A model generated the notes under the pieces. It made no database searches. It saw nothing but the letters and a program-made list of their open reading frames with translations, and was not told the DNA's origin. From positions 3,348,001 through 3,412,000 of the forward strand of contig NZ_JARRAG010000002.1 of NCBI RefSeq assembly GCF_029589435.1: a stretch of DNA of 64,000 nucleotides. Reading direction: 5' to 3'. The position numbers and the translations under genes are program-made. Shown here piece after piece: positions 28,286 to 42,303 of this stretch. Positions within the stretch are counted from its first letter, which is position 1. The number at the start of each line of letters is the position of its first letter. This DNA is from Paludisphaera mucosa. GTDB lineage: Bacteria > Planctomycetota > Planctomycetia > Isosphaerales > Isosphaeraceae.

Positions 28286-29545
28286 GTGATCGTGCGACGG
28301 CGCCTCGTGCTCGGCCTCGGCCTCTCGACCCTGATGACGCTGGCGGCCGGCTGCTCGGACGCCGATCTGACCGGACCGATCGTCTACGAGGAGCAGCCGG
28401 CCCTGACCCGCGAGGTCGAGGGCAAGGCCCACCTCGCCGGCAAGCCCAAGATCCAGGCCAAGGCCCGCAAGGCGCTGGAGAAGCTCTACGGCCCCGCGCC
28501 CAAGGAGATCCACGTCCCCGAGGGCGCGCCGCTGACGAAGGACGAATCGGGCCGGCTCGGCATGCTGCTGGCCAACTTCGAGCAGACGCCCGAGGGCCCG
28601 AAGAAGCTGGACCACGCCGGCGGCTACGGCCTCTACCGCCGCCACTGCCTGCACTGCCACGGCGTCACCGGCGCGGGCGACGGTCCGACGGCCCCATTCG
28701 TCTTCCCGCCCCCTCGCGACTTCCGCCGCGGCCTGTTCAAGTTCACCTCCACCCCCAACGGCGCGCGGCCCGACCGCGACGACCTGCGGCGGTCGATCCG
28801 CGACGGCCTGCACGGCACCTCGATGCCGGCGTTCGAGGCCCTGCTGACCGCCGCCGAGATGGAGCAGGTCGTCGACTACGTCACCTTCCTGAGCCTCCGC
28901 GGCGAGACCGAGCTGGCCCTGATCGAAGAGGGCTTCATCGGCGACGACGAGGACGAGGACGCCCTGGGCGACGACGTCGTGGCCGAGCTGGTGCAAGGGG
29001 TCTTCGGCAAGTGGGAAGACGCCCGCGACGCCGTGGTGAACCCGCCCTCGCCCCGCACGCCCCCCTCGCCCGAGAGCGTCGGCCGGGGCCGCGACCTGTT
29101 CCTGGGCCGGACCAAGGAGAAGCTCGAATGCGCCGGCTGCCACGGCGCGAAGGGGCTGGGCGACGGGCCCAGCTTCGTCGAGGTGGGCGTGTTCAACCGC
29201 GTCGTCTTCGGCGGCGACCCCAGCAAGATGCCCGAGCGGGTGGCCAAGCTCGACGACAAGACCCGCGAGCTGTGGAAGCAGAAGCTCGACGAGTGGGGCA
29301 ACCCGCTGCGGCCGGCCAACCTGACCCGCGCGGTGTACAAGGGGGGGCGGCGGCCCATCGACCTCTACTGGCGGATCGCCAAGGGGATCACCGGCGCCCA
29401 GATGCCCGCCCACTACCCCGGGATCGACCAGGCGCAGATCTGGGACCTGGTGAACTTCGTGCTCGCCCTGCCCTACCAGCCCGAGCTGCTCGACGAGCCG
29501 TCGACGGCGGGCGTGACGGCCGAAGCCCCGGCGGTCCGACGATGA
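28286..29545 (+). CDS. Dihaem cytochrome c lipoprotein
   Basis: A 419-residue protein starting at GTG with GGAG nine bases upstream. It begins with a lipoprotein signal (LSTLMTLAAGC). Two c-type haem sites are present, CLHCH (about residue 119) and CAGCH (about 284), each followed by a Met-containing region that could supply the sixth ligand. Each half resembles a cytochrome c domain of class I. It lies 143 bases upstream of cytochrome oxidase subunit II and probably passes electrons to the oxidase from the quinol side. An acidic linker (GDDEDEDALGDD) joins the domains. Confidence 0.85.
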   Translation: MIVRRRLVLGLGLSTLMTLAAGCSDADLTGPIVYEEQPALTREVEGKAHLAGKPKIQAKARKALEKLYGPAPKEIHVPEGAPLTKDESGRLGMLLANFEQTPEGPKKLDHAGGYGLYRRHCLHCHGVTGAGDGPTAPFVFPPPRDFRRGLFKFTSTPNGARPDRDDLRRSIRDGLHGTSMPAFEALLTAAEMEQVVDYVTFLSLRGETELALIEEGFIGDDEDEDALGDDVVAELVQGVFGKWEDARDAVVNPPSPRTPPSPESVGRGRDLFLGRTKEKLECAGCHGAKGLGDGPSFVEVGVFNRVVFGGDPSKMPERVAKLDDKTRELWKQKLDEWGNPLRPANLTRAVYKGGRRPIDLYWRIAKGITGAQMPAHYPGIDQAQIWDLVNFVLALPYQPELLDEPSTAGVTAEAPAVRR

Positions 29546-29688: not shown

Positions 29689-30518
29689 TTGCGATACTGG
29701 AGCCTGATCTTCGCCCTCGCGGCCGCGTTCAGCGTCGGGGCCTTCGCCTACGCGCCGTTCTCGGCCGACTGGTGGCTCCCCAACCCGGCCGGCGAGCCCC
29801 GCCACGTCGTCTCGACGTTCGGCCGGGAGATCGACGCGCTGTTCGTCATCATCCTCTGGCTGACCGGGGCGGTGTTCGTGGGCACCCACGCGGCCCTGAT
29901 CTGGGCCCAGTTCCGCTACGCCGACCGCGTCGACGCCGACGGCAAGCCGGCCCGGCCCGCCCAGTACTTCCACGGCAGCCAGCGGCTCGAGGTCGTCTGG
30001 ACCATCATCCCGGCCGGCATCCTCGTCTTCCTGGCGCTCTACCAGATGGACACCTGGGCGAACATCAAGTTCCGTTCGGCCGCCCCCCGGACGCCCGTGC
30101 TCGCCGAGCTGACCGGCCGCCAGTTCCAGTGGATGATGAAGTATCCCGGCCCCGACGGCCGGCTCAACACGCCCGACGACCTCTTCACGGTGAACGACCT
30201 GCACTTCGTGAAGGACCGGACGGCCCTCATCCACCTGAAGTCGGCCGACGTGATCCACTCGTTCTTCCTCCCCCAGATGCGGATCAAGCAGGACGCGGTC
30301 CCCGGGATGACCATCCCGGTCTGGTTCGACTGCGACCGCGCGGGCCGCTACGAGCTGGCCTGCGCCGAGCTCTGCGGCTGGGGCCATTACAAGATGCGCG
30401 GCGACGTCGTGGTCCACGAGACCGAGCGGGAATTCCAGGAGTGGCAGGCGGCCAAGCTCGCCGAGCAGGGCCGCAGCCAGCTCGCGACCGCCCCGGGCGA
30501 CCCGGGAGGGGATGAGAA

Positions 30519-30522
<4 letters not shown>
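29689..30522 (+). CDS. ctaC: Cytochrome c oxidase subunit II
   Basis: A 277-residue subunit with two membrane helices in the N-terminal 105 residues and a C-terminal cupredoxin domain. The CuA site is complete: His in DVIHSFF and CAELCGWGHYKM, giving two Cys, one His, one Met and the bridging backbone. There is no C-terminal cytochrome c domain, so electrons come from a separate cytochrome such as the neighbouring dihaem protein. The start is a TTG without a clear ribosome site. Its TGA overlaps the ATG of subunit I by four bases. Confidence 0.93.
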
Positions 30523-32360
<1,838 letters not shown>

Positions 32361-32451: not shown

Positions 32452-33450
32452 ATGACGAACCCGAACCCGAACCCGGATCTCGATCCCGACCGCGTCCCGG
32501 CCTACCGCCGCGCCCCGCACTGGGCGGCGGTGCTGGCGGCGGTCTTCACGCTGCCCCTGCTGATCCTCGGCGGCCTGGTCACCACGTACCGGGTCGGGAT
32601 GGCCGTCCCCGACTGGCCGACGACGTTCGGCATGAACATGTTCCTGTACAACTTCTGGAACGCCGCCGTCGGCGTCCAGCTCGAGCACGGCCACCGGCTC
32701 TACGGCTCGGCGGTCGGGCTGACGATGATCGCCCTGTGCGTCTGGTTCTTCCTGTTCGAGAAGCGAGGCTGGATGAAGGCCCTGGGCGTGACCGCCCTGG
32801 TCGTGGTGATCATCCAGGGCCTCATGGGCGGGTTCCGCGTGACGTTGAACTCGACCCCGCTGGCCGCGCTCCACGGCTGCCTGGGCCAGGCCTTCTTCGC
32901 CATGACCGTCGCCCTGGCGACGTTCACCGGCCGCGACTGGCTGAGCGACGCGAAGCCCGCCCCCGACTCGAAGGGGATCCGCGGCCTGGCGCTGCTGACC
33001 CTGGCCCTCGTCTTCGCCCAGATCGGCCTCGGCGCCTGGGTCCGCCACTTCAGCGGGACGGCCGCGGCCGTCTTCCACGGGGTCGTCGGCACGGCGATCC
33101 TCGGGATCGCGGCCCACCTGTTCGTGACGATCAAGAAGAGCGACCCGCCCCGGCCCTCGCTGAAGTCGGCCGCCCGCGTGCAGGAGGTCTTGGCGGGCCT
33201 GCAGATCTTGCTCGGCGTGGCCTCGTTCGTCATGCTGTGGCCGTTCGACGGCATGCCGCGCGTGGTGGGCTTCTACCAGGCCGTCGTCCGGACCGTCCAC
33301 CAGACCAACGGGGCCGTGCTGCTGGCCGCCTCGGTGGTGACCGTCCTGCGGGCCTACCGGCACCTCGGCCCGGCCTCGCTCCGCGAAGCGTCTTCGTCCT
33401 CGTCCCCCTCGTCCTCGGCCGTTCCGGCCGATCTGGAGGTCGTCGCTTGA
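32452..33450 (+). CDS. ctaA: Haem A synthase (COX15/CtaA)
   Basis: A 332-residue eight-helix membrane protein of the COX15/CtaA family, which oxidises the haem O methyl group to the formyl of haem A. Visible are the conserved His residues in LEHGHRLYGS (helix 2), ALHGCLGQAFF (helix 4), AVFHGVVG and TVHQTNGAVLL, which bind haem in the two half-bundles. The N-terminus has Asn/Pro repeats (NPNPNPDLDPD), the C-terminus a Ser tract. Between oxidase I and ctaB, as expected. Confidence 0.92.
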   Translation: MTNPNPNPDLDPDRVPAYRRAPHWAAVLAAVFTLPLLILGGLVTTYRVGMAVPDWPTTFGMNMFLYNFWNAAVGVQLEHGHRLYGSAVGLTMIALCVWFFLFEKRGWMKALGVTALVVVIIQGLMGGFRVTLNSTPLAALHGCLGQAFFAMTVALATFTGRDWLSDAKPAPDSKGIRGLALLTLALVFAQIGLGAWVRHFSGTAAAVFHGVVGTAILGIAAHLFVTIKKSDPPRPSLKSAARVQEVLAGLQILLGVASFVMLWPFDGMPRVVGFYQAVVRTVHQTNGAVLLAASVVTVLRAYRHLGPASLREASSSSSPSSSAVPADLEVVA

Positions 33451-34385
33451 AATCCGCCGCCTCGTTGGGCCAGACGGCCCTCGCCGCCGCCCCCCCCGCC
33501 GACGTCGTCGACCTGGACGCCGTGGGCGGCCGGACGTCGGCCTACCTGTCGCTGACCAAGCCCCGCATCGTCCTGCTCGTGGTGATCACGGTGGGCGTTG
33601 GGTTCCTGCTGGGGGCCCGCGGCAGCGCCCATCCGACGACCCTGGCCGCGACCCTGATCGGCTCCGCCCTGGTGGCCGGCGGCGCAAGCGCGTTGAACAT
33701 GTACCTGGAACGCGCCCGAGACGCCCGGATGCGGCGCACCCGGCGGCGGGCCCTGCCCAGCGGCCGACTCGCGCCGATCGAGGCGGCCGCGTTCGGCGTG
33801 GCGTTGGGCGTCGTCGGGACGCTCATCCTGCTGGCGGGCGCGAACGCCATGGCCGCCGGCGTGGCGTTGACGACCCTGATCCTCTACGTCTGCGTCTACA
33901 CGCCCCTGAAGACGATGACGACGCTGAACACAGCCGTGGGCGCGATCCCCGGCGCCCTGCCCGCCGTCATCGGCTGGACGGCGGCCACCGGCACGCTGAG
34001 CGTCGAGGCCTGGACGCTCTTCCTGATCGTCTTTCTCTGGCAGTTCCCGCACTTCCTGGCGATCGCCTGGATCTACCGCGAGGATTACGCCAAGGGGGGC
34101 ATGCGGATGCTGCCCGAGTTCGACCCCCAGGGGGTCGTCACGGGCCGGCAGGCGACGCTCTACGCCCTGGCGCTGGTGCCCGCGGGGCTGCTGCCGACCG
34201 TCGTGGGCCTGGCCGGGCCGACCTACTTCTTCGGCGCCCTGGCGTTCGGCCTCTTCTACCTCACGGCCGCCGCCCGCTTCTGGGCCGACGTCAACGACGC
34301 GACCGCCCGGCGGCTGCTGCGGGCGTCGTTCCTGTACCTGCCGGCCGTCCTGCTCCTGCTCGTGCTCAACCCCCTGCCCGCCTGA
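33447..34385 (+). CDS. ctaB: Protohaem IX farnesyltransferase (haem O synthase)
   Basis: A 312-residue UbiA-type prenyltransferase with about eight helices. The allylic-substrate Asp/Asn motif is NMYLERARDARMRRT, with a second motif DYAKGGMRMLPEFDP, both characteristic of CtaB/COX10. The start is TTG, overlapping the ctaA stop, with TGGAGG seven bases upstream. It adds farnesyl to haem B to make haem O, the substrate of the upstream ctaA product. Confidence 0.93.
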   Translation: MKSAASLGQTALAAAPPADVVDLDAVGGRTSAYLSLTKPRIVLLVVITVGVGFLLGARGSAHPTTLAATLIGSALVAGGASALNMYLERARDARMRRTRRRALPSGRLAPIEAAAFGVALGVVGTLILLAGANAMAAGVALTTLILYVCVYTPLKTMTTLNTAVGAIPGALPAVIGWTAATGTLSVEAWTLFLIVFLWQFPHFLAIAWIYREDYAKGGMRMLPEFDPQGVVTGRQATLYALALVPAGLLPTVVGLAGPTYFFGALAFGLFYLTAAARFWADVNDATARRLLRASFLYLPAVLLLLVLNPLPA

Positions 34386-34409: not shown

Positions 34410-35363
34410 ATGGCCCCAGCGGACGCCCCGACGCCCCCCGCCGCCCCGCACGCGGGCCGGGAGCACGCCCACCACTCGGCCGAGGCGGCCCCCGCGCCGG
34501 CGACGCCCGGCAAGGTCGCCATGTGGCTCTTCCTGGCGACCGAGATCATGTTCTTCACGGGCCTGATCGGCTCGTACATCGTCTGCCGGGGCGGGAGCCC
34601 GCCGACCGCCTACAGCAACCTCTTCCCCCCGACGACCCCGCTGGAGCGGCTCCGCGACGCCCGCGGCGTGGTCGTCGAATCGCCGGGCGGCGACCCGGCG
34701 AAGGTCGAGGCGGCGATCGCGAAGGCCACCGGCCGGGGCGAGGAAGCCGTCGCCCAGATCCTCGCGTCCGCCCCCCACGGCGTCGTCAACGGCCTCCCCG
34801 CGAAGGCGGCGGACGCCCTGGCCGAGACGCTCGGGACGCTCGGCGCGAGAGCGCAGGTCATCTCGCTGAAGACGTCGAGCTGGCCCAAGCCCTACGACCC
34901 CCTGGTCAACCCCCTGAGCATCGACCTGACGACGATCAACACGTTCATCCTCATCTGCTCGTCGGCCACGATGGTCCTCGCGGTCTCGGCGATCCAGCGG
35001 GGGCGGAAGGCGCGCTGCTCGCTCTTCCTGCTGGCCACGGTGGTGCTCGGCGGGATCTTCCTGGGCGTTCAGGTCTTCGAGTACCACGAGCTGCTCGAAG
35101 GCCGGACCTACCCGCCCGGGATCAGCCCCACGGGGCACTTCCGGCCCGGCGTCAGCCTCTTCGCGTCGTGCTTCTTCACCGTGACCGGCTTCCACGGCCT
35201 GCACGTCGCGGCCGGCGTCGTGACGCTCGCCCTGCTCTTCCTGGCCTCGCTCACCGGGCGCTTCTCGGCCCGGAACTTCGCGGCGGTCGAGTACGTCGGC
35301 CTCTACTGGCACTTCGTCGACGTCGTGTGGATCCTGCTGTTCACGATCGTCTACCTCGTTTGA
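34410..35363 (+). CDS. ctaE: Cytochrome c oxidase subunit III with L7/L12-like insert
   Basis: A 317-residue subunit III: helix 1 (KVAMWLFLATEIMFFTGLIG), then after an insertion the remaining helices including FFTVTGFHGLHVAAG and YWHFVDVVWILLF, the family hallmarks. Between the first and second helices, residues about 86-151 form a segment that resembles the C-terminal domain of ribosomal protein L7/L12: an AI-KATGRGEEAV helix, an ILASAPHGV turn, then ADALAETLGTLGARAQV. This insert is not a usual part of subunit III. The His-rich N-terminus is typical of this cluster. Subunit III is not catalytic but stabilises oxidase I. Confidence 0.9.
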   Translation: MAPADAPTPPAAPHAGREHAHHSAEAAPAPATPGKVAMWLFLATEIMFFTGLIGSYIVCRGGSPPTAYSNLFPPTTPLERLRDARGVVVESPGGDPAKVEAAIAKATGRGEEAVAQILASAPHGVVNGLPAKAADALAETLGTLGARAQVISLKTSSWPKPYDPLVNPLSIDLTTINTFILICSSATMVLAVSAIQRGRKARCSLFLLATVVLGGIFLGVQVFEYHELLEGRTYPPGISPTGHFRPGVSLFASCFFTVTGFHGLHVAAGVVTLALLFLASLTGRFSARNFAAVEYVGLYWHFVDVVWILLFTIVYLV

Positions 35364-35401: not shown

Positions 35402-35821
35402 ATGACCGAGCCCAACGACGCGACCCCGACCCTCCCGGTCGTCCCCTCGACGCCCGCCCAGGTGGACGCCGCGGCCGACGTCGAGTCGCACGCCCCCTAC
35501 ATGAAGGTGCTGCTCGGCCTGCTCGTGCTGACGATCCTGGAATACGGCTTCGCCCGCGTCTTCAAGGACTCTTCGGGCCCCCTGATCTTCGGCCTGGTGC
35601 TGCTGGCCTCGGTGAAGGCGGCGCTGGTGGCCTGGTACTTCATGCACCTGAAGTTCGAGCGGCTCTGGGTGTTCCTGGTGATCGCGCCGGCGTTCGTGCT
35701 GGCCCTGATCCTCACCGCGCTGCTCTTCCCGGATTTCGTCATGCGGACCGAGCCGCTCGACGAGCCCGAGCCCACCGCGACGGCCGCCTCGTCGGGCGGG
35801 GCGACGCCCGGCGCGGTATGA
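35402..35821 (+). CDS. ctaF: Cytochrome c oxidase subunit IV family protein
   Basis: A 139-residue protein with three hydrophobic helices (about 35-52, 58-78, 88-108) and the caa3-type motif AALVAWYFMHLKFERLW. It is the small fourth subunit of bacterial aa3/caa3 oxidases, needed for stability. The N-terminal 30 and C-terminal 30 residues are polar Pro/Thr-rich extensions. Directly after subunit III in the operon. Confidence 0.87.
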   Translation: MTEPNDATPTLPVVPSTPAQVDAAADVESHAPYMKVLLGLLVLTILEYGFARVFKDSSGPLIFGLVLLASVKAALVAWYFMHLKFERLWVFLVIAPAFVLALILTALLFPDFVMRTEPLDEPEPTATAASSGGATPGAV

Positions 35822-35933: not shown

Positions 35934-37088
35934 GTGGAATCGGGATATCGACGCGGCGTGCTGATCGTCGTCACGGCCATCATCCTCTCGGGCGGCCTCT
36001 GCGCCGCGTGGATCCGCACCGGCGGCCCGCCCGCGCCGGCGGGCCAGGACCTCGGCCCGGGGGCGACCCCGCTGGGATCGTTCTCGCTCGGCGAGCGCTC
36101 GGGACGGGCCGTGACCGACGCGACCCTGGCCGACCGGGTCTGGATCGGCTCGTTCATCTTCACCCGCTGCAAGCTCTCGTGCCCGCGGATCACGAGCGTC
36201 ATGAAGAGCCTGCAGGAGCGGCTGGCGGGCACGGACGTCCAGCTCGTCAGCATCTCGGTCGACCCCGAGCACGACACGCCCGAAGTGCTCCGCGACTACG
36301 CCGACCGGTTCGGCGCGGACCCTTTCCGCTGGTGGTTCCTGACCGGTCCCCGCGACGCCATCCTGGCGATGATCCACGACAAGTTCCACCTGACCGCCAT
36401 GACCAACCCCGCGCCGGCGGCCGACGGCAGCGACGAGGCCGTCATCCACAGCGACCGCCTCGCGCTCGTCGATCGCGGCAAGGTGCTGGGCCTGTTCGAG
36501 TCCCAGGACGCTCAGGCCCTCGACAATTTGGTCGCCCGGGCCCGCCGGCTGGCCTCGCCCCGCTGGGTCCGCGCCCTGCCGGCGGTGAACGCGACCCTCA
36601 ACGGCCTCTGCACCATCCTGCTGCTGGCCGGCTGGCTCGCCATCCGCCGCCCGGGGAGCCCCGCGGTCGTCGCGGTCGCCGAGGGCGACGCCCTGGCCCA
36701 GCCGACGGCCCCCTCGCGACTGGCCTCCCTGCTCGGCGACCCGGCCACGCGCGGCCACCTGCTGGCGATGGGGATGGCCGTGCTGACCTCGGCCGTGTTC
36801 CTGGGCTGCTACCTGCTCTACCACTACCTCGCCGGCAGCATGCGGTTCCCGGGCGGCGGCGGGCTCCGCTGGCTCTACCTGACGATCCTGACCTCGCACA
36901 CCCTGCTGGCGACCTTCTTCGTCGTCCCCCTCGTCGTCCTGACCCTGCTGAGGGCCCTGCGGGGCGACTTCGCCCGGCACGTCCGCGTGGCGCGGGTCGC
37001 GTTCCCCATCTGGATGTACGTCTCGATCACCGGGGTCGTGATCTACCTGATGCTCTACCAGCTCCCGCTGGCGACCGCCGCCCCCTGA
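35934..37088 (+). CDS. SCO1/SenC and DUF420 fusion, copper assembly
   Basis: A 384-residue membrane protein. After an N-terminal anchor, residues 40-195 are a SCO1/SenC thioredoxin-like domain with the copper site CKLSC and a distal His (HSDRLALVD). Residues 215-384 hold four or five helices that match DUF420 (CtaM-like), including HYLAGSMRFPGGGGLRW and LYLTILTSHTLLA. SCO1 builds the CuA centre of subunit II; CtaM is required for haem-copper oxidase assembly in Gram-positives. The GTG start has a weak AGGTGG upstream. The gene closes the oxidase cluster. Confidence 0.87.
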   Translation: MESGYRRGVLIVVTAIILSGGLCAAWIRTGGPPAPAGQDLGPGATPLGSFSLGERSGRAVTDATLADRVWIGSFIFTRCKLSCPRITSVMKSLQERLAGTDVQLVSISVDPEHDTPEVLRDYADRFGADPFRWWFLTGPRDAILAMIHDKFHLTAMTNPAPAADGSDEAVIHSDRLALVDRGKVLGLFESQDAQALDNLVARARRLASPRWVRALPAVNATLNGLCTILLLAGWLAIRRPGSPAVVAVAEGDALAQPTAPSRLASLLGDPATRGHLLAMGMAVLTSAVFLGCYLLYHYLAGSMRFPGGGGLRWLYLTILTSHTLLATFFVVPLVVLTLLRALRGDFARHVRVARVAFPIWMYVSITGVVIYLMLYQLPLATAAP

Positions 37089-37398: not shown

Positions 37399-40300
37399 AT
37401 GCGTCTCACGCTCCCTCTGCGACGCGGTTGGGGACGTCCTCCCGGGCGCCGGGCGGGGACGCCGCGGCTGGAGTACGTCGAACGCCGGGTCCTGCTCTCG
37501 ACGTTCACGGTCGAGACGGCGGCCGACGACGGCCCCGGGTCGCTGCGCTGGGCGATCACGCAGGCGAACGCCGACCTCGACGCGGGGCCCAGCTCGATCC
37601 GGTTCGCCATCCCGGGCTCCGGCCTGCAGACGATCCGGCTGCAGTCGCCGCTCGCCCCGATCACGCGCCCGGTGCTGATCGAGGGCCGGTCGCAGCCGGG
37701 TTACACCGGGACGCCCCTGATCCGCCTCGACGGCTCCTCGGCGCAGTCGAGCGGCTCGTACGGGCTGGTCGTCGCGGGGGGCGGCAGCCTGGTCGCCGGC
37801 CTGGCGGTCACCGGCTTCTCGGGCGCGGGGATCCTGCTGACCGGGCCCGGCGGCGACTTCGTCGAGTCCAGCTACGTCGGGCTCGTCCCCGGGATCCCGG
37901 GGGCCGCGGCGAACGGCGAAGGGATCGTGGTCCTGGGCTCCTCGAACAACACGATCGGCGGGCCCGCCGGCCAGGGGAACGTGATCTCGGGCAATCGGGG
38001 CGCGGGCGTCCGGGTCGCGATCGTCACGCCGGGCGACTCGACGGGCAACGCCATCACCGGCAATTTGATCGGGACCGACGGGGCCGGCGTCTTGGCCGTC
38101 GGCAACGGCCAGGACGGCGTCGTGTTCGCGGGCGCGAGCTACGGCCGGATCACGGGGAACGTCGTCTCGGGCAACTTCGGGAATGGGATCACGCTGAACG
38201 GTCGCGCGACCGGGCACGTGATCCTGGGCAACGTCGTCGGGCTGACGGCCGACGGCCAGGCCGCGCTGGGGAACAACCGCGACGGGATCCTGGTCGACGA
38301 CGCCCCCGGGAACGTGATCGGCGGGCTGGTCGCGGACGAGGCCAACCAGATCTCCGCCAATCGCGGCAGCGGCGTCCGGGCCCGCAACGACTCCGCGGGG
38401 CTGCAGGTCCTGGGGAACCAGATCGGCGTCGACGCGACCGCGACGCGGCCGTTCGGCAACCAGGGCGACGGCCTGACGCTGGGCTCGAGCGGCGTGAAGG
38501 TCGGCGGCGAGGACTCCGGCGCCGGCAACGTGATCGCCTACAACGGCGTCGGCACGACGGGCGCCGGGGTGCAGCTGGTCGGCCTGGTGAGCGGCGACAC
38601 GATCCTCTCGAACCGGATCTTCAAGAACGCCGGGCTGGGGATCAACCTCAACAACGGCCCGACGCCGAACCACACCCCGGGCCAGTTCATCGGCCCCAAC
38701 GGCTGGGCGAATTACCCGATCCTGACCTCGGCCGTCACCGACGGCCTCGTGACCTCCTCCGCGGGGAGCCTGACCGGGATGCCCCTGCAGAGTTACACGA
38801 TCCAGTTCTTCTGGACCGACGCCCCCGACCGATCGGGCTTCGGCGAGGGCGAGCGGCTCCTGGGCTCGACCGAGACGTCGGCCGGCGACGACGGCCGGGC
38901 GAGCTTCGCGATCCCGATCCCGTCCTCGACCGACGGCGGGTTCCTGTCGGCCACGGCGACCGACGCGGCGGGGAACACCTCGGAGTTCTCGCAGGCCATC
39001 CTGATCCGGCCGTACACCGACCTGGACGTCGCCCTGACGGCGGATCCGACGCTCGCCCCCCAGGGCTCGGCGGTCACGTTCCGGGCCACCGTGACCAACC
39101 GCGGCCACCTCACCGCGTCGAACGTCTCGCTGGCGGCCCAGCTCCCCGCGACGGCGGCCGTCCTCTCGTCGACGGGGGTCGGGGGCGTCATGTCCGCCGA
39201 GGCGGCCGGGAGCTTCCGCCTCGCGGTCGGGTCGCTGGCCCCCGGGGCGTCGGCCGTGCTGGTCGTCGCCCTGCAGCCCCCTGCCGGCTTCAGCGGCGAC
39301 TTCACGGGCACGGCGACCGCGACGACCGCCGAGCCCGACTCCCACCCGGGCGACGAATCGGCCGTCGCGACGGCCCGGCTCACGCCCGTCGTCGACGTCG
39401 CGGTCGCGCTGGCGAGCGGCCCCTCGACGGCCCTCCGGGGCGACTCGCTCGTCTACGTCCTCTCCGCGTCGAACGCCGGGCCGGGGACTGCGACCGGCGT
39501 GGTCCTCACCTTCCCGATCGGGCCGGGGGCGTCGTACGTGGCCGCGACCGGCGACCAGGGGGCCGGGAGGATCGACGGCGGCCGCCTGATCATCGACCTG
39601 GGCTCGCTGGGCCCCGGCGCGACGGCGACGTTCGTCATCACCTTGCGGGCCGACGCCGTCGGCGTCTTCGCGTCCACGGCGAGCCTGGCGACCGACGAGT
39701 ATCAGGCCGACGCCGCGAACGACGCCGTGAGCTTCTCGACCGAGATCCTGGGCCAGGCCGACCTCGCGGTCGCCATGCAGGCCCCTCCCCTCGCGGCCGA
39801 CGACCACGACCTGGTCTACGCCGTCGTCGTCGCCAACAACGGCCCCGACGCGGCTCGCAACGTCGTCCTGCTCGACCTCATCCCGGCCCTGTCGACCTTC
39901 GACGCAGCCTGGTTCGACGGCGGCTCGACGAGCTTCGCCGACGGCATCGTCACCGCCCGGCTCGACGCGCTCGACGCCGGGGCCGCGGCGACCCTCTGGA
40001 TCCGCGTCCGGCCGACGGCCGCCGCCGGCGCGACCCTGACGAACGCCGCGCGGGCGTCGAGCGACGAGCCGGACTCCGACCCGAGCGACAACGCCGACTG
40101 GCGCCGGACCGAAGTCCGCCCCGTCGCCGACCTCGGCGCGACGATCGCCCCCGACTCGCCGACGGTTGTCCAGGGCCAGGCCGCGACGTTCCGAATCCGC
40201 GTCAGCAACCAGGGCCCGTCGCCCGAGCCCGACGCCCTGCTGACGGTCCCCCTGCCCGACTGGGCCGTCCTGGCCTCGGCCGTCGCCACCCAGGGAGGCC

Positions 40301-42303
40301 CGGCGACGGTCGCGAACGGCGTCGTCGGGTTCCGGCTGGGGACGCTCGCCGTCGGCGGCTGGGCGGAGGCGACGATCGCGCTGACGGCCCGGCCCACGGC
40401 CGCCGGCCCGCTCATCCTGACCGCGAACGTCCAGGGCTGGGACATCGACTTCAACCCGGCCGACGACACGGCGAGCGCCGTCGTGACGGGCCTGCCGGCG
40501 GCCGACCTCGCGGTCTACGTCACCCCTCCCCCCCTGGTCCACGAGCGGTCGACGTTCCAGTACACGCTCACGGCGGCCAACCTCTCGCCCCTGGCGACGG
40601 GCGGCGTCCAGCTCGCCGCGCCCCTCCCGGCGGGGGTCGAGTTCGTCTCGGCGGTCGCCAGCCAGGGCGCCGCGCCCGTCCTGGACTCCGGCCGCGTGGT
40701 CGCCAACCTGGGGGACCTCGCCGGGTCGTCGACGGCCGCGATGACCATCACGGTCCGGCCGACGTCGCCCGCCGGGACGGCCCTGCTGCTCTCGGGCGTC
40801 GCGACGAGCGACCTCCCCGACCCGGCGTCCGGCAACGACGTCGGCCGCTACGCCGTGTACGTCGCGCCGGCCGTCGACCTCATGGTGCGGCTTCAGACTT
40901 TGCAGCCCTCCGTCGAGCTGGGCGGGGACGTCACCTGGGTCGCCCAGGTCTGGAATTCCAGCCCCACGACGGCCACGGGCGTCGACCTGAGCATCCCCTT
41001 CGAGGCTTGCGGGATCTTCGTCGGGTCGGCGACGACCCAGGGCTCGGTGCAGGCGTCCGCCAGCCTGATCACGGCGGCCCTCGGGACGATCGGGCCCTGG
41101 GGGAACGCGACGGTCGCCTTCGTCCTGCGCCCCCAGGCCGTCGGCCCCGCGGTCCTGACCGTTTTGGCCGCCGCCGACCAGTTCGACTCCGGCCCCGACG
41201 ACGACCGATCGACGGCCGCCCTCAACGTCCTGGAGCCGCCCGGGACGCTCCAGTTCGCCGTCCCCGCGGTCGCCGTCCCCGAGACGGCGGGTTTCGCCTA
41301 CGTCCCGGTCCAGCGCGTCGGCGGCGCGCGGGGGACCGTCACGGTCCGCTACCGCACGACGACCGGGACCGCCTCGCCGGGCGTCGATTACGTGCCGGTC
41401 TCCGGGGTCCTGACGTTCCAGCCCGGCCAGACGCTCGCGACGATCGCGGTCCCCGTCCTCGCCTACCCCCACAACCGGGGCGACGAGTCGGTCGCGATCG
41501 TCCTGGAAGGGGCGACCGACGGGGCCGTCCTCGGCGGCCTGGCGACGGCGTCGGTCACGATCCAGGACGTCGACCCCGACTACGTCCCGCCCGCCGTGGG
41601 CCGCGTCCGGCTGCTGGGCGACCCGAACTCCATCGGCGGCCTGTCCATCGCCTTCAGCGAGCCCCTCGACCGCGCCGCCGCGCTCGACGGCGCGGCGTAC
41701 ACGCTGTACGACCTGGGCCCCAACGGCGTCTTCGGCGACGGCGACGACGCGCCGATCGCCTACCTGGCCCCGGGCTACGACCCGGCGACCCAGACCGTCT
41801 ACCTGACCCCCGCGGCCCCGATGGCCCTGGGCCGGCAGTACGCCATCGTCGTCCGGGGCGCGGGGCCGGCGGGGCTCGTCGACCTCGCGGGCAACCCGCT
41901 GGGCGGCGGGGTCGATTTCGTCGGCCTCTTCGCGCGGGGGACGACGTTGAACTACACCGACTCCAACGGCGACGCGGTGTCGCTCCAGGTCAAGAGCGGC
42001 GGCTTCATGGACCTGATCCGCGGCCCCTCGGGCGACGCCCGGCTGCTGACGCTGCAGGGGGCCGTCCCGGGCAAGACCACGCTCTCGGGCAGCGTTTCGA
42101 AGCCGAGGGGCCGGGGCGACGGCGTGACGCCCATCGACGCGATCGAGGGCCTGGGCTCGTTCGGCGACGTCCGCGTCAGCCTGAAGAGCCCGCCGTTCAT
42201 CTCGAGCAGCCTGCCGGCCACCCCCGCCCGCGGCGGCCGCCCGCCCGTCGCGGCCCAGGGCCGGGCCGTCGCCCTCGCGCGGCGGATCCCCGGCGTGAAA
42301 TGA
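37399..42303 (+). CDS. Giant secreted protein: beta-helix, six DUF11-type repeats, Calx-beta
   Basis: A 1,634-residue extracellular protein. The N-terminus (LEYVERRVLLS, about residues 25-35) matches the planctomycete signature on many large secreted proteins. Residues about 40-430 are a right-handed parallel beta-helix with short repeats (VISGN, GNVI). From about 540 to 1,277 there are six repeats of roughly 115 residues of the DUF11/CARDB type, each starting near DLxVxL. Residues about 1,279-1,392 are a Calx-beta domain and the rest resembles an Ig-like SbsA module. No enzyme motif; probably adhesion or envelope structure. Confidence 0.85.
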   Translation: MRLTLPLRRGWGRPPGRRAGTPRLEYVERRVLLSTFTVETAADDGPGSLRWAITQANADLDAGPSSIRFAIPGSGLQTIRLQSPLAPITRPVLIEGRSQPGYTGTPLIRLDGSSAQSSGSYGLVVAGGGSLVAGLAVTGFSGAGILLTGPGGDFVESSYVGLVPGIPGAAANGEGIVVLGSSNNTIGGPAGQGNVISGNRGAGVRVAIVTPGDSTGNAITGNLIGTDGAGVLAVGNGQDGVVFAGASYGRITGNVVSGNFGNGITLNGRATGHVILGNVVGLTADGQAALGNNRDGILVDDAPGNVIGGLVADEANQISANRGSGVRARNDSAGLQVLGNQIGVDATATRPFGNQGDGLTLGSSGVKVGGEDSGAGNVIAYNGVGTTGAGVQLVGLVSGDTILSNRIFKNAGLGINLNNGPTPNHTPGQFIGPNGWANYPILTSAVTDGLVTSSAGSLTGMPLQSYTIQFFWTDAPDRSGFGEGERLLGSTETSAGDDGRASFAIPIPSSTDGGFLSATATDAAGNTSEFSQAILIRPYTDLDVALTADPTLAPQGSAVTFRATVTNRGHLTASNVSLAAQLPATAAVLSSTGVGGVMSAEAAGSFRLAVGSLAPGASAVLVVALQPPAGFSGDFTGTATATTAEPDSHPGDESAVATARLTPVVDVAVALASGPSTALRGDSLVYVLSASNAGPGTATGVVLTFPIGPGASYVAATGDQGAGRIDGGRLIIDLGSLGPGATATFVITLRADAVGVFASTASLATDEYQADAANDAVSFSTEILGQADLAVAMQAPPLAADDHDLVYAVVVANNGPDAARNVVLLDLIPALSTFDAAWFDGGSTSFADGIVTARLDALDAGAAATLWIRVRPTAAAGATLTNAARASSDEPDSDPSDNADWRRTEVRPVADLGATIAPDSPTVVQGQAATFRIRVSNQGPSPEPDALLTVPLPDWAVLASAVATQGGPATVANGVVGFRLGTLAVGGWAEATIALTARPTAAGPLILTANVQGWDIDFNPADDTASAVVTGLPAADLAVYVTPPPLVHERSTFQYTLTAANLSPLATGGVQLAAPLPAGVEFVSAVASQGAAPVLDSGRVVANLGDLAGSSTAAMTITVRPTSPAGTALLLSGVATSDLPDPASGNDVGRYAVYVAPAVDLMVRLQTLQPSVELGGDVTWVAQVWNSSPTTATGVDLSIPFEACGIFVGSATTQGSVQASASLITAALGTIGPWGNATVAFVLRPQAVGPAVLTVLAAADQFDSGPDDDRSTAALNVLEPPGTLQFAVPAVAVPETAGFAYVPVQRVGGARGTVTVRYRTTTGTASPGVDYVPVSGVLTFQPGQTLATIAVPVLAYPHNRGDESVAIVLEGATDGAVLGGLATASVTIQDVDPDYVPPAVGRVRLLGDPNSIGGLSIAFSEPLDRAAALDGAAYTLYDLGPNGVFGDGDDAPIAYLAPGYDPATQTVYLTPAAPMALGRQYAIVVRGAGPAGLVDLAGNPLGGGVDFVGLFARGTTLNYTDSNGDAVSLQVKSGGFMDLIRGPSGDARLLTLQGAVPGKTTLSGSVSKPRGRGDGVTPIDAIEGLGSFGDVRVSLKSPPFISSSLPATPARGGRPPVAAQGRAVALARRIPGVK

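Follow-up and report, generated by a model that had tools for sequence, protein, structure and literature searches.

Haem-copper oxidases have strongly conserved core subunits and, to our knowledge, it is rare for a folded domain to be inserted into the transmembrane ones. In the five-helix form of subunit III (COX3, family PF00510; for example Escherichia coli CyoC and the actinobacterial CtaE) the N-terminus is inside and the C-terminus outside, as known for CyoC, which puts the loop between helices 1 and 2 outside. The C-terminal domain (CTD) of the ribosomal stalk protein L7/L12 (bL12, family PF00542) is a small, stable domain whose ends, judging from the topology of the fold, should lie close together. 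Its positively charged face meets translation GTPases (PMC3677378), and E. coli ribosomes become less active when K65 is changed to A or E (PMC6110070). A paper that discusses COX3 architecture (PMC4013037) mentions no L12-CTD within this subunit in its accessible portion. Likewise, no description of an L12-CTD inside COX3 was found among the titles and abstract beginnings of the open-licence PubMed Central literature, although domain databases may already show the PF00510–PF00542 pair for some of the relatives described below.

We analysed a stretch of 64,000 nucleotides (the window) from the planctomycete Paludisphaera mucosa (Isosphaeraceae). Its ctaE gene (34410–35363, forward strand) starts with ATG, ends with the stop codon at 35361–35363 and encodes 317 amino acids. 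PF00510 matched residues 164–316 (E 5.5e-22; 79.3 bits against a cut-off of 23.8), and the CtaE, CyoC and QoxC family profiles matched the ORF as well, each below its own curated cut-off. The assignment to COX3 is based on the PF00510 match together with the conserved C-terminal helices, on the COX3 structures that occupied ranks 1–43 in a Foldseek search with the full model, and on the position of the gene in a cox operon. In the AlphaFold model transmembrane helix 1 comprises residues 33–62 (34506–34595), and helices 2–5 comprise residues 171–196, 200–230, 250–281 and 291–316. Helix 1 is followed by the L7/L12 CTD-like domain (residues 84–152, 34659–34865), which was recognised by profile, AlphaFold and fold searches, by an exit linker to helix 2 of low model confidence that contains WPKPYD (residues 153–170, 34866–34919), and by the COX3 core with helices 2–5 (residues 171–317, 34920–35360), as delimited by PF00510 and the model; all these features are on the forward strand. 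The W-x-x-P-Y/F motif of the linker is common to insert-free relatives. With described five-helix COX3 proteins the protein shares the five transmembrane helices, the YWHFVDVVW signature and the location in a cox operon. However, 94 residues lie between the helix 1 motif and WPxPY, compared with 27–32 in the eight insert-free relatives measured, and the extra loop residues hold a predicted folded domain.

The genes around ctaE are all on the forward strand. Upstream are a di-haem c-type cytochrome with two CxxCH motifs (28334–29545, start codon uncertain), which has Cytochrome_CBB3 and Cytochrom_C matches and, by eye, a lipoprotein-like start; cox2 (CtaC, 29689–30522) and cox1 (CtaD, 30519–32360), both named by eye from their sequences; and the putative genes for haem A synthase (ctaA, 32452–33450) and haem O synthase (ctaB, 33447–34385, start approximate), assigned from sequence and position. 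Downstream follow a small ORF (35405–35821) that, read by eye, codes for a putative membrane protein like subunit IV, and a single ORF in which profile matches show a fusion of SCO1/SenC and DUF420 (35934–37088). The window has the order cox2-cox1-ctaA-ctaB-ctaE, and 35 stretches of relatives show it too within the limits of each stretch, with cox2 likewise in its place. The insert-bearing CtaE would be a subunit of a stand-alone aa3-type oxidase. An ORF of 1634 amino acids with repeated blocks (37399–42303) is located downstream of the oxidase cluster.

The original prediction, made by eye, was that residues 86–151, between helices 1 and 2, resemble the L7/L12 CTD. Profile, fold and family evidence bear this out, and residues ~84–152 are confirmed as a homologue of the bacterial L7/L12 CTD. 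The insert of the window alone had no Pfam match, even at E 10, and BLASTP gave no alignment with the bL12 of the same genome, which is encoded elsewhere (G000:C2:4005885-4006085). With phmmer against the PDB, residues 86–150 were colinear with positions 9–73 of 1ctf (the E. coli L7/L12 CTD) at an E-value of 0.17. When a profile of 22 inserts of the family was compared with all PDB sequences, the E. coli L7/L12 CTD came first (E 1.1e-14, 64 positions aligned without a gap), followed by other bL12s. Alignment of the insert profile with 29 planctomycete bL12 CTDs by hhalign gave a probability of 98.3 and an E-value of 1.4e-14 over 65 columns. Against 29 bL12 CTDs, 30 column-shuffled profiles reached at most 15.0 bits and the real profile 59.0. 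PF00542 was matched by 16 of the 22 inserts at E <= 10 (best 2.5e-12).

In a separate PF00542 search of 40 genomes (25 of Isosphaeraceae, of which 17 are insert-bearing), the family was detected inside ctaE at E <= 0.001 in seven of the 17 insert-bearing genomes. Five of these exceeded the curated cut-off (G015 with 46.5 bits, G009, G018, G019, and G002 with 25.9 bits, at the cut-off) and two were under it (G021 and G008). At locus L087, PF00510 and PF00542 were both over their cut-offs in one protein (PF00542 42.9 bits, cut-off 25.9). The profile check put forward with the original prediction thus failed for the insert of the window on its own and succeeded for several of its relatives. Membership of the window's own insert in PF00542 follows from the profile matches of the relatives; the single sequence would not prove it. 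Because of the family profile, the PF00542 matches within the family and the shuffle control, the likeness exceeds what is expected by chance. The insert and the bL12 CTD have in common the domain family, the fold, a gap-free alignment of 64–65 columns and the hydrophobic core, but the insert has neither the N-terminal dimerisation domain nor the hinge of bL12 and is part of a membrane protein, with COX3 helix 1 before it and helix 2 after it.

AlphaFold modelled the full CtaE with a mean pLDDT of 77.4 (alignment of 25 sequences) and the insert alone with a mean pLDDT of 72.9, a moderate confidence (two sequences); both alignments contained only one other insert-bearing sequence. In the full model the insert consists of a strand (84–91), two helices (96–107 and 111–119), a strand (124–130), a helix (131–143) and a strand (147–152), which is the order of the L12 CTD, and the order E-H-H-E-H-E was obtained for the insert alone. 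The insert is therefore predicted still to fold as a beta-alpha-alpha-beta-alpha-beta L12 CTD. Behind the COX3 structures, the Foldseek search with the full model gave L7/L12 at ranks 44–49 (E 0.02–0.16) and then ClpS (TM 0.59); for chains with the L12 CTD alone the TM by target was 0.72–0.76. With the insert alone ranks 1–8 were all L12 (E 0.004–0.04, TM by target up to 0.75), and there was no match at E <= 0.001. Structure prediction and fold searches, in which L12 came out on top for the insert, were thus in line with the profile results.

Extending the comparison to other planctomycete ctaE genes, as had also been proposed, CtaE could be read in 42 of 45 Isosphaeraceae genomes. The family name was assigned through G003, which has the genus code of the window's genome and whose DNA at this locus is identical to L001 from Paludisphaera soli, a species classified in Isosphaeraceae (Planctomycetota). 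The insert was present in 29 of these genes and missing from 13; counted by genus, 13 carried it and 8 did not (21 genera). The remaining three genomes are G011, in which no close CtaE was found, G439, in which the fragment begins inside the insert (L220), and G442. The insert profile matched 29 of 47 CtaE rows and none of the 18 insert-free rows, which include five outgroup rows from other families. In 22 genomes from other families of the class, the matches listed covered no part of residues 86–151, and among 80 loci from many phyla the profile matched only that of Paludisphaera soli (L001). A scan of 392 genomes of the phylum, in which up to 14 initial candidates were scored in each genome, gave matches to the insert profile in 366; among the matches listed, CtaE inserts were seen in G000 (the genome of the window) and G018, the others being mostly short bL12 frames. 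A second search of the 25 genomes with extra insert-profile matches gave 54 rows, and no COX3 was seen among the ORFs read from these. In these limited searches the insert was thus not seen in the COX3 of other families.

Some of the sequences had further peculiarities. The ctaE genes of G031 and G014 (L101 and L102) contain an additional insertion of ~36 residues, rich in charged ones, which separates helices 1 and 2 of the L12-like domain itself. In G444 (L219) CtaE is ~95 residues longer than in its relative G443; the extra segment, beside the L12-like insert, is partly hydrophobic and precedes a conserved SGHFRP stretch. A COX3 is also encoded on a contig titled Bifidobacterium breve MAG (L003), a title that looks doubtful.

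A tree of the CtaE core and Cox1 was made from 28 sequences with the insert, 12 without it and 5 outgroup sequences; G034, G023 and G439 were omitted on account of contig ends. The insert required four state changes on this tree (mean of 13.8 after shuffling), of which the starred branches force only one. Some outgroup branches were very long and 11 of the 45 rows covered less than half of the columns; this tree does not fix the gains and losses of the insert. On the domain tree the insert group required two changes, both of them forced by starred branches. The reason is that L258, which has a very long branch, was placed within the group; this placement is taken as a probable artefact. As to the donor of the insert, BLASTP against the genome's own bL12 was empty, and the columns of the domain tree are too few to identify it. 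Most simply, a copy of the bL12 CTD would have entered the loop between helices 1 and 2 of CtaE once, in an ancestor of the Isosphaeraceae, and would later have been lost in some genera. Whereas homology, place and distribution of the insert are established by the comparisons above, this number and order of events is what we infer from them.

The residues of 29 inserts were compared with those of 30 bL12 CTDs, 29 from planctomycetes and one from E. coli. The inserts are related, so that the counts do not represent independent events. At 16 chosen core positions the residue was non-polar (A, V, I, L, M, F, G, C, T, W or Y) in at least 26 of the 29 inserts, and G114, L110 and G62 were identical to bL12 in 28, 28 and 26 inserts, respectively. 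The surface was different. Positions K65, K70, R73, K81 and K84 were basic in all 30 bL12s; in the 29 inserts they were basic in 4, 3, 13, 1 and 3 and acidic in 4, 14, 4, 22 and 15, respectively. Identity to bL12 was 0/29 at K65, K70, L80 and K81, 3/29 at K84 and 11/29 at R73. The mean net charge of helices 4–5 was +2.0 in bL12 and -3.3 in the inserts, being positive in 30/30 bL12s and negative in 27/29 inserts. A histidine in the turn after helix 5 (His123 in the window) was present in 23 of the inserts, missing from six, and found in none of the 30 bL12s. The basic helix 4–5 face with which bL12 meets translation GTPases has therefore been lost in the CtaE inserts and is mostly acidic instead, so a stalk function like that on the ribosome is unlikely for the insert, which, with the factor-face residues gone, does not offer a translation-type docking face. 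Judged from these residues, it must probably do something else or be tolerated. In the window itself the whole loop is neutral and helices 4–5 carry a charge of only -1, so that an acidic docking face would be weak in this genome.

The original prediction had left open whether the domain is in the cytoplasm or the periplasm. The known topology of five-helix COX3 indicates that the insert is probably on the periplasmic side, to which the loop charges add weak support, and the cytoplasmic option is disfavoured. CtaE loops 2 and 4 contain three and two basic residues and no acidic ones, as expected for cytoplasmic loops; outer loop 3 is likewise basic (two basic, no acidic residues), and the loop charges therefore tell little about topology.

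Selection was estimated for five members of the genus (Nei-Gojobori dN/dS, 10 pairs). The ratio was 0.42–0.92 for the insert, 0.13–0.20 for the COX3 core and 0.24–1.34 for the N-terminal tail. For the insert it was below 1 in all 10 pairs, showing weak purifying selection; the domain evolves fast, its fold being kept under weak constraint. Few surface positions of the insert are conserved.

The genome of the window contains a second COX3 (C3:137811-138005) with a short loop and no insert. It is located ~7.4 kb from a gene for NrfD (C3:145386-146357; stretch L269, G000:C3:136500-147500), which we take to be a marker of alternative complex III (ACIII). An Nrf-like cluster beside a COX operon has been described for Planctomycetes, among others (PMC4013037). 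In total, NrfD was found in 41 of the 45 Isosphaeraceae genomes. Docking of the insert to ACIII was rejected: NrfD is also present in insert-free genomes (G006, G007 and others), and the COX3s read in L269 and in the NrfD stretch of G028 have a short loop. A motif search revealed no COX3 in NrfD stretches L271 and L272, and the insert profile had no match in any of the four NrfD stretches fetched. Three genomes without NrfD (G027, G010 and G036) lack the insert and a fourth (G442) leaves residues 84–154 unaligned, all within one genus. Since a bc-type cytochrome b is present in 44 of the 45 genomes, it does not separate the two groups.

Changes linked to the insert were sought by comparing sequences with and without it, for Cox2 (20 and 7 sequences), Cox1 (21 and 7) and the CtaE core (29 and 13). 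The strict column scan of the CtaE core gave no indel column and no fixed difference. For Cox1 and Cox2 it gave no clear linked change, the flagged columns being gap-rich; the flagged column that has a residue in the window, Cox1 column 155, is a gap in six of the seven insert-free rows.

What, then, is the insert, and what could it do? That it is an ordinary loop with a chance likeness to L7/L12 would fit the lack of a Pfam match and the phmmer E-value of 0.17 obtained with the window sequence. This was rejected in view of the profile E-value of 1.1e-14, the shuffle control, the PF00542 matches of relatives over the cut-off and the predicted fold, and has next to no probability left; the original prediction held on this point. 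Nor is it at all likely that the insert is a ClpS-type member of the fold shared by ClpS and L12, recruiting peptides or proteases. ClpS adaptors have a similar order of secondary structure elements and similar fold scores: VIA with the insert alone gave a Z of 9.6 for L7/L12 and of 8.8 for ClpS (7d34), a difference within 1 Z that counts as tied by the rule of the tool, and the TM by target in Foldseek was 0.48–0.65 among the ClpS rows listed, against 0.61–0.75 for the bacterial L12 CTD chains at ranks 2–8 (two longer chains left out). With fold scores this close, L12 was chosen because the sequence searches match L12 and not ClpS; no ClpS chain was present among the 56 PDB chains matched by the 22-insert profile at E <= 10, and ClpS was absent from the 19 families matched by the 22 inserts. 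A cytoplasmic loop whose domain has continued to recruit ribosomes or translation GTPases, perhaps so that the oxidase is inserted co-translationally, is also highly improbable given the topology of COX3, which has the loop outside, the residues lost at K65, K70, L80 and K81 and mostly at K84 and R73, and a helix 4–5 face of opposite sign in 27/29 inserts. Translation GTPases being the known partners of the L12 CTD (PMC3677378) is the point in its favour.

Two readings carry nearly all the weight. We see an even chance that the insert is an autonomous, plug-in surface domain on the outer face, weakly holding or orienting a periplasmic partner. The loop would face the periplasm, and the domain would lie next to the side at which electrons enter the oxidase; the basic face that binds translation GTPases has been turned into a mostly acidic one, and the acidic, often histidine-bearing surface thus added could weakly hold or orient the partner. 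Candidates are a donor cytochrome c, a copper or haem delivery factor and a neighbouring complex, and these may differ between genera. The docking module of the original prediction did not, as such, emerge from the analysis: its surface is poorly conserved and evolves fast, 8 of the 21 genera do without it and clear linked changes were not found. The docking reading is weakened in particular by the lack of surface conservation and by a dN/dS much like that of the N-terminal tail, both pointing to weak constraint; the 13 of 42 CtaE genes without an insert suggest that the oxidase works without it. A somewhat less than even chance is given to passive insertion, in which an L12-CTD homologue without a task sits in a tolerant outer loop and its core is kept only because the domain has to fold and must not aggregate. 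The dN/dS values of insert and COX3 core, the few conserved surface positions, the absence from 8 of 21 genera, the lack of clear linked changes in Cox1, Cox2 and the CtaE core, and the long mid-domain insertion tolerated in G031 and G014 all agree with this. On the other hand, 13 genera have kept the insert in frame and its core undamaged, and the charge inversion (27/29) and the recurrent histidine in the turn look directed, though the 29 inserts share ancestry.

L12-CTDs were also encountered in other planctomycete proteins, from other families of the phylum; these have the same domain as CtaE but different host proteins. Of ten non-ribosomal proteins scanned, eight had PF00542 over the cut-off, the exceptions being L251 and L261. 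Among those over the cut-off were a TMEM43-like protein (L238:895-2472, reverse strand), a ResB-CcsA cytochrome c assembly protein with the domain between its ResB and CcsA parts (L250:3-3083, forward), a PD40 protein (L221:577-2172, reverse), a DUF4340 protein (L246:1492-3195, reverse), an MshEN protein (L249:781-1995, forward) and two small proteins with a lipoprotein-like start (L223:1492-2064 and L264:1791-2345, both reverse). In the rhomboid protein at L261:1103-2611 (forward strand), the part that follows the rhomboid domain weakly resembled an L12-CTD (insert profile E 7e-5), and PF00542 was not matched. Several of the non-ribosomal L12-CTDs lie beside membrane parts or parts that are apparently exported, as judged by eye from the protein starts. 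The domain tree, which is of low resolution, took in 15 of the 26 other-protein domains read and placed 14 of the 15 outside the cluster of CtaE inserts. Quite possibly, if a little short of probably, the L7/L12 CTD is a recurrent, insertable outer-face module in Planctomycetota that was captured independently and acquired a new, mostly acidic recognition surface in CtaE. Its hosts, named just as tentatively, would be CtaE, ResB-CcsA, TMEM43-like, PD40 and DUF4340 proteins and small lipoproteins.

A stalk domain in this position, which is probably on the outside of the membrane, would show that a fold which binds translation factors can be exported and reused. Natural controls are at hand: some related genera carry the insert and others lack it, and the same genome has a second COX3 that is free of it. 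Binding of a partner by the domain would mean that the planctomycete respiratory chain has a contact so far unknown; a domain that does nothing would be a clean example of how a central enzyme can tolerate the insertion of a domain. Should the module indeed be recurrent, the ribosomal stalk domain would have been reused in Planctomycetota for the contacts of membrane-bound and exported machines.
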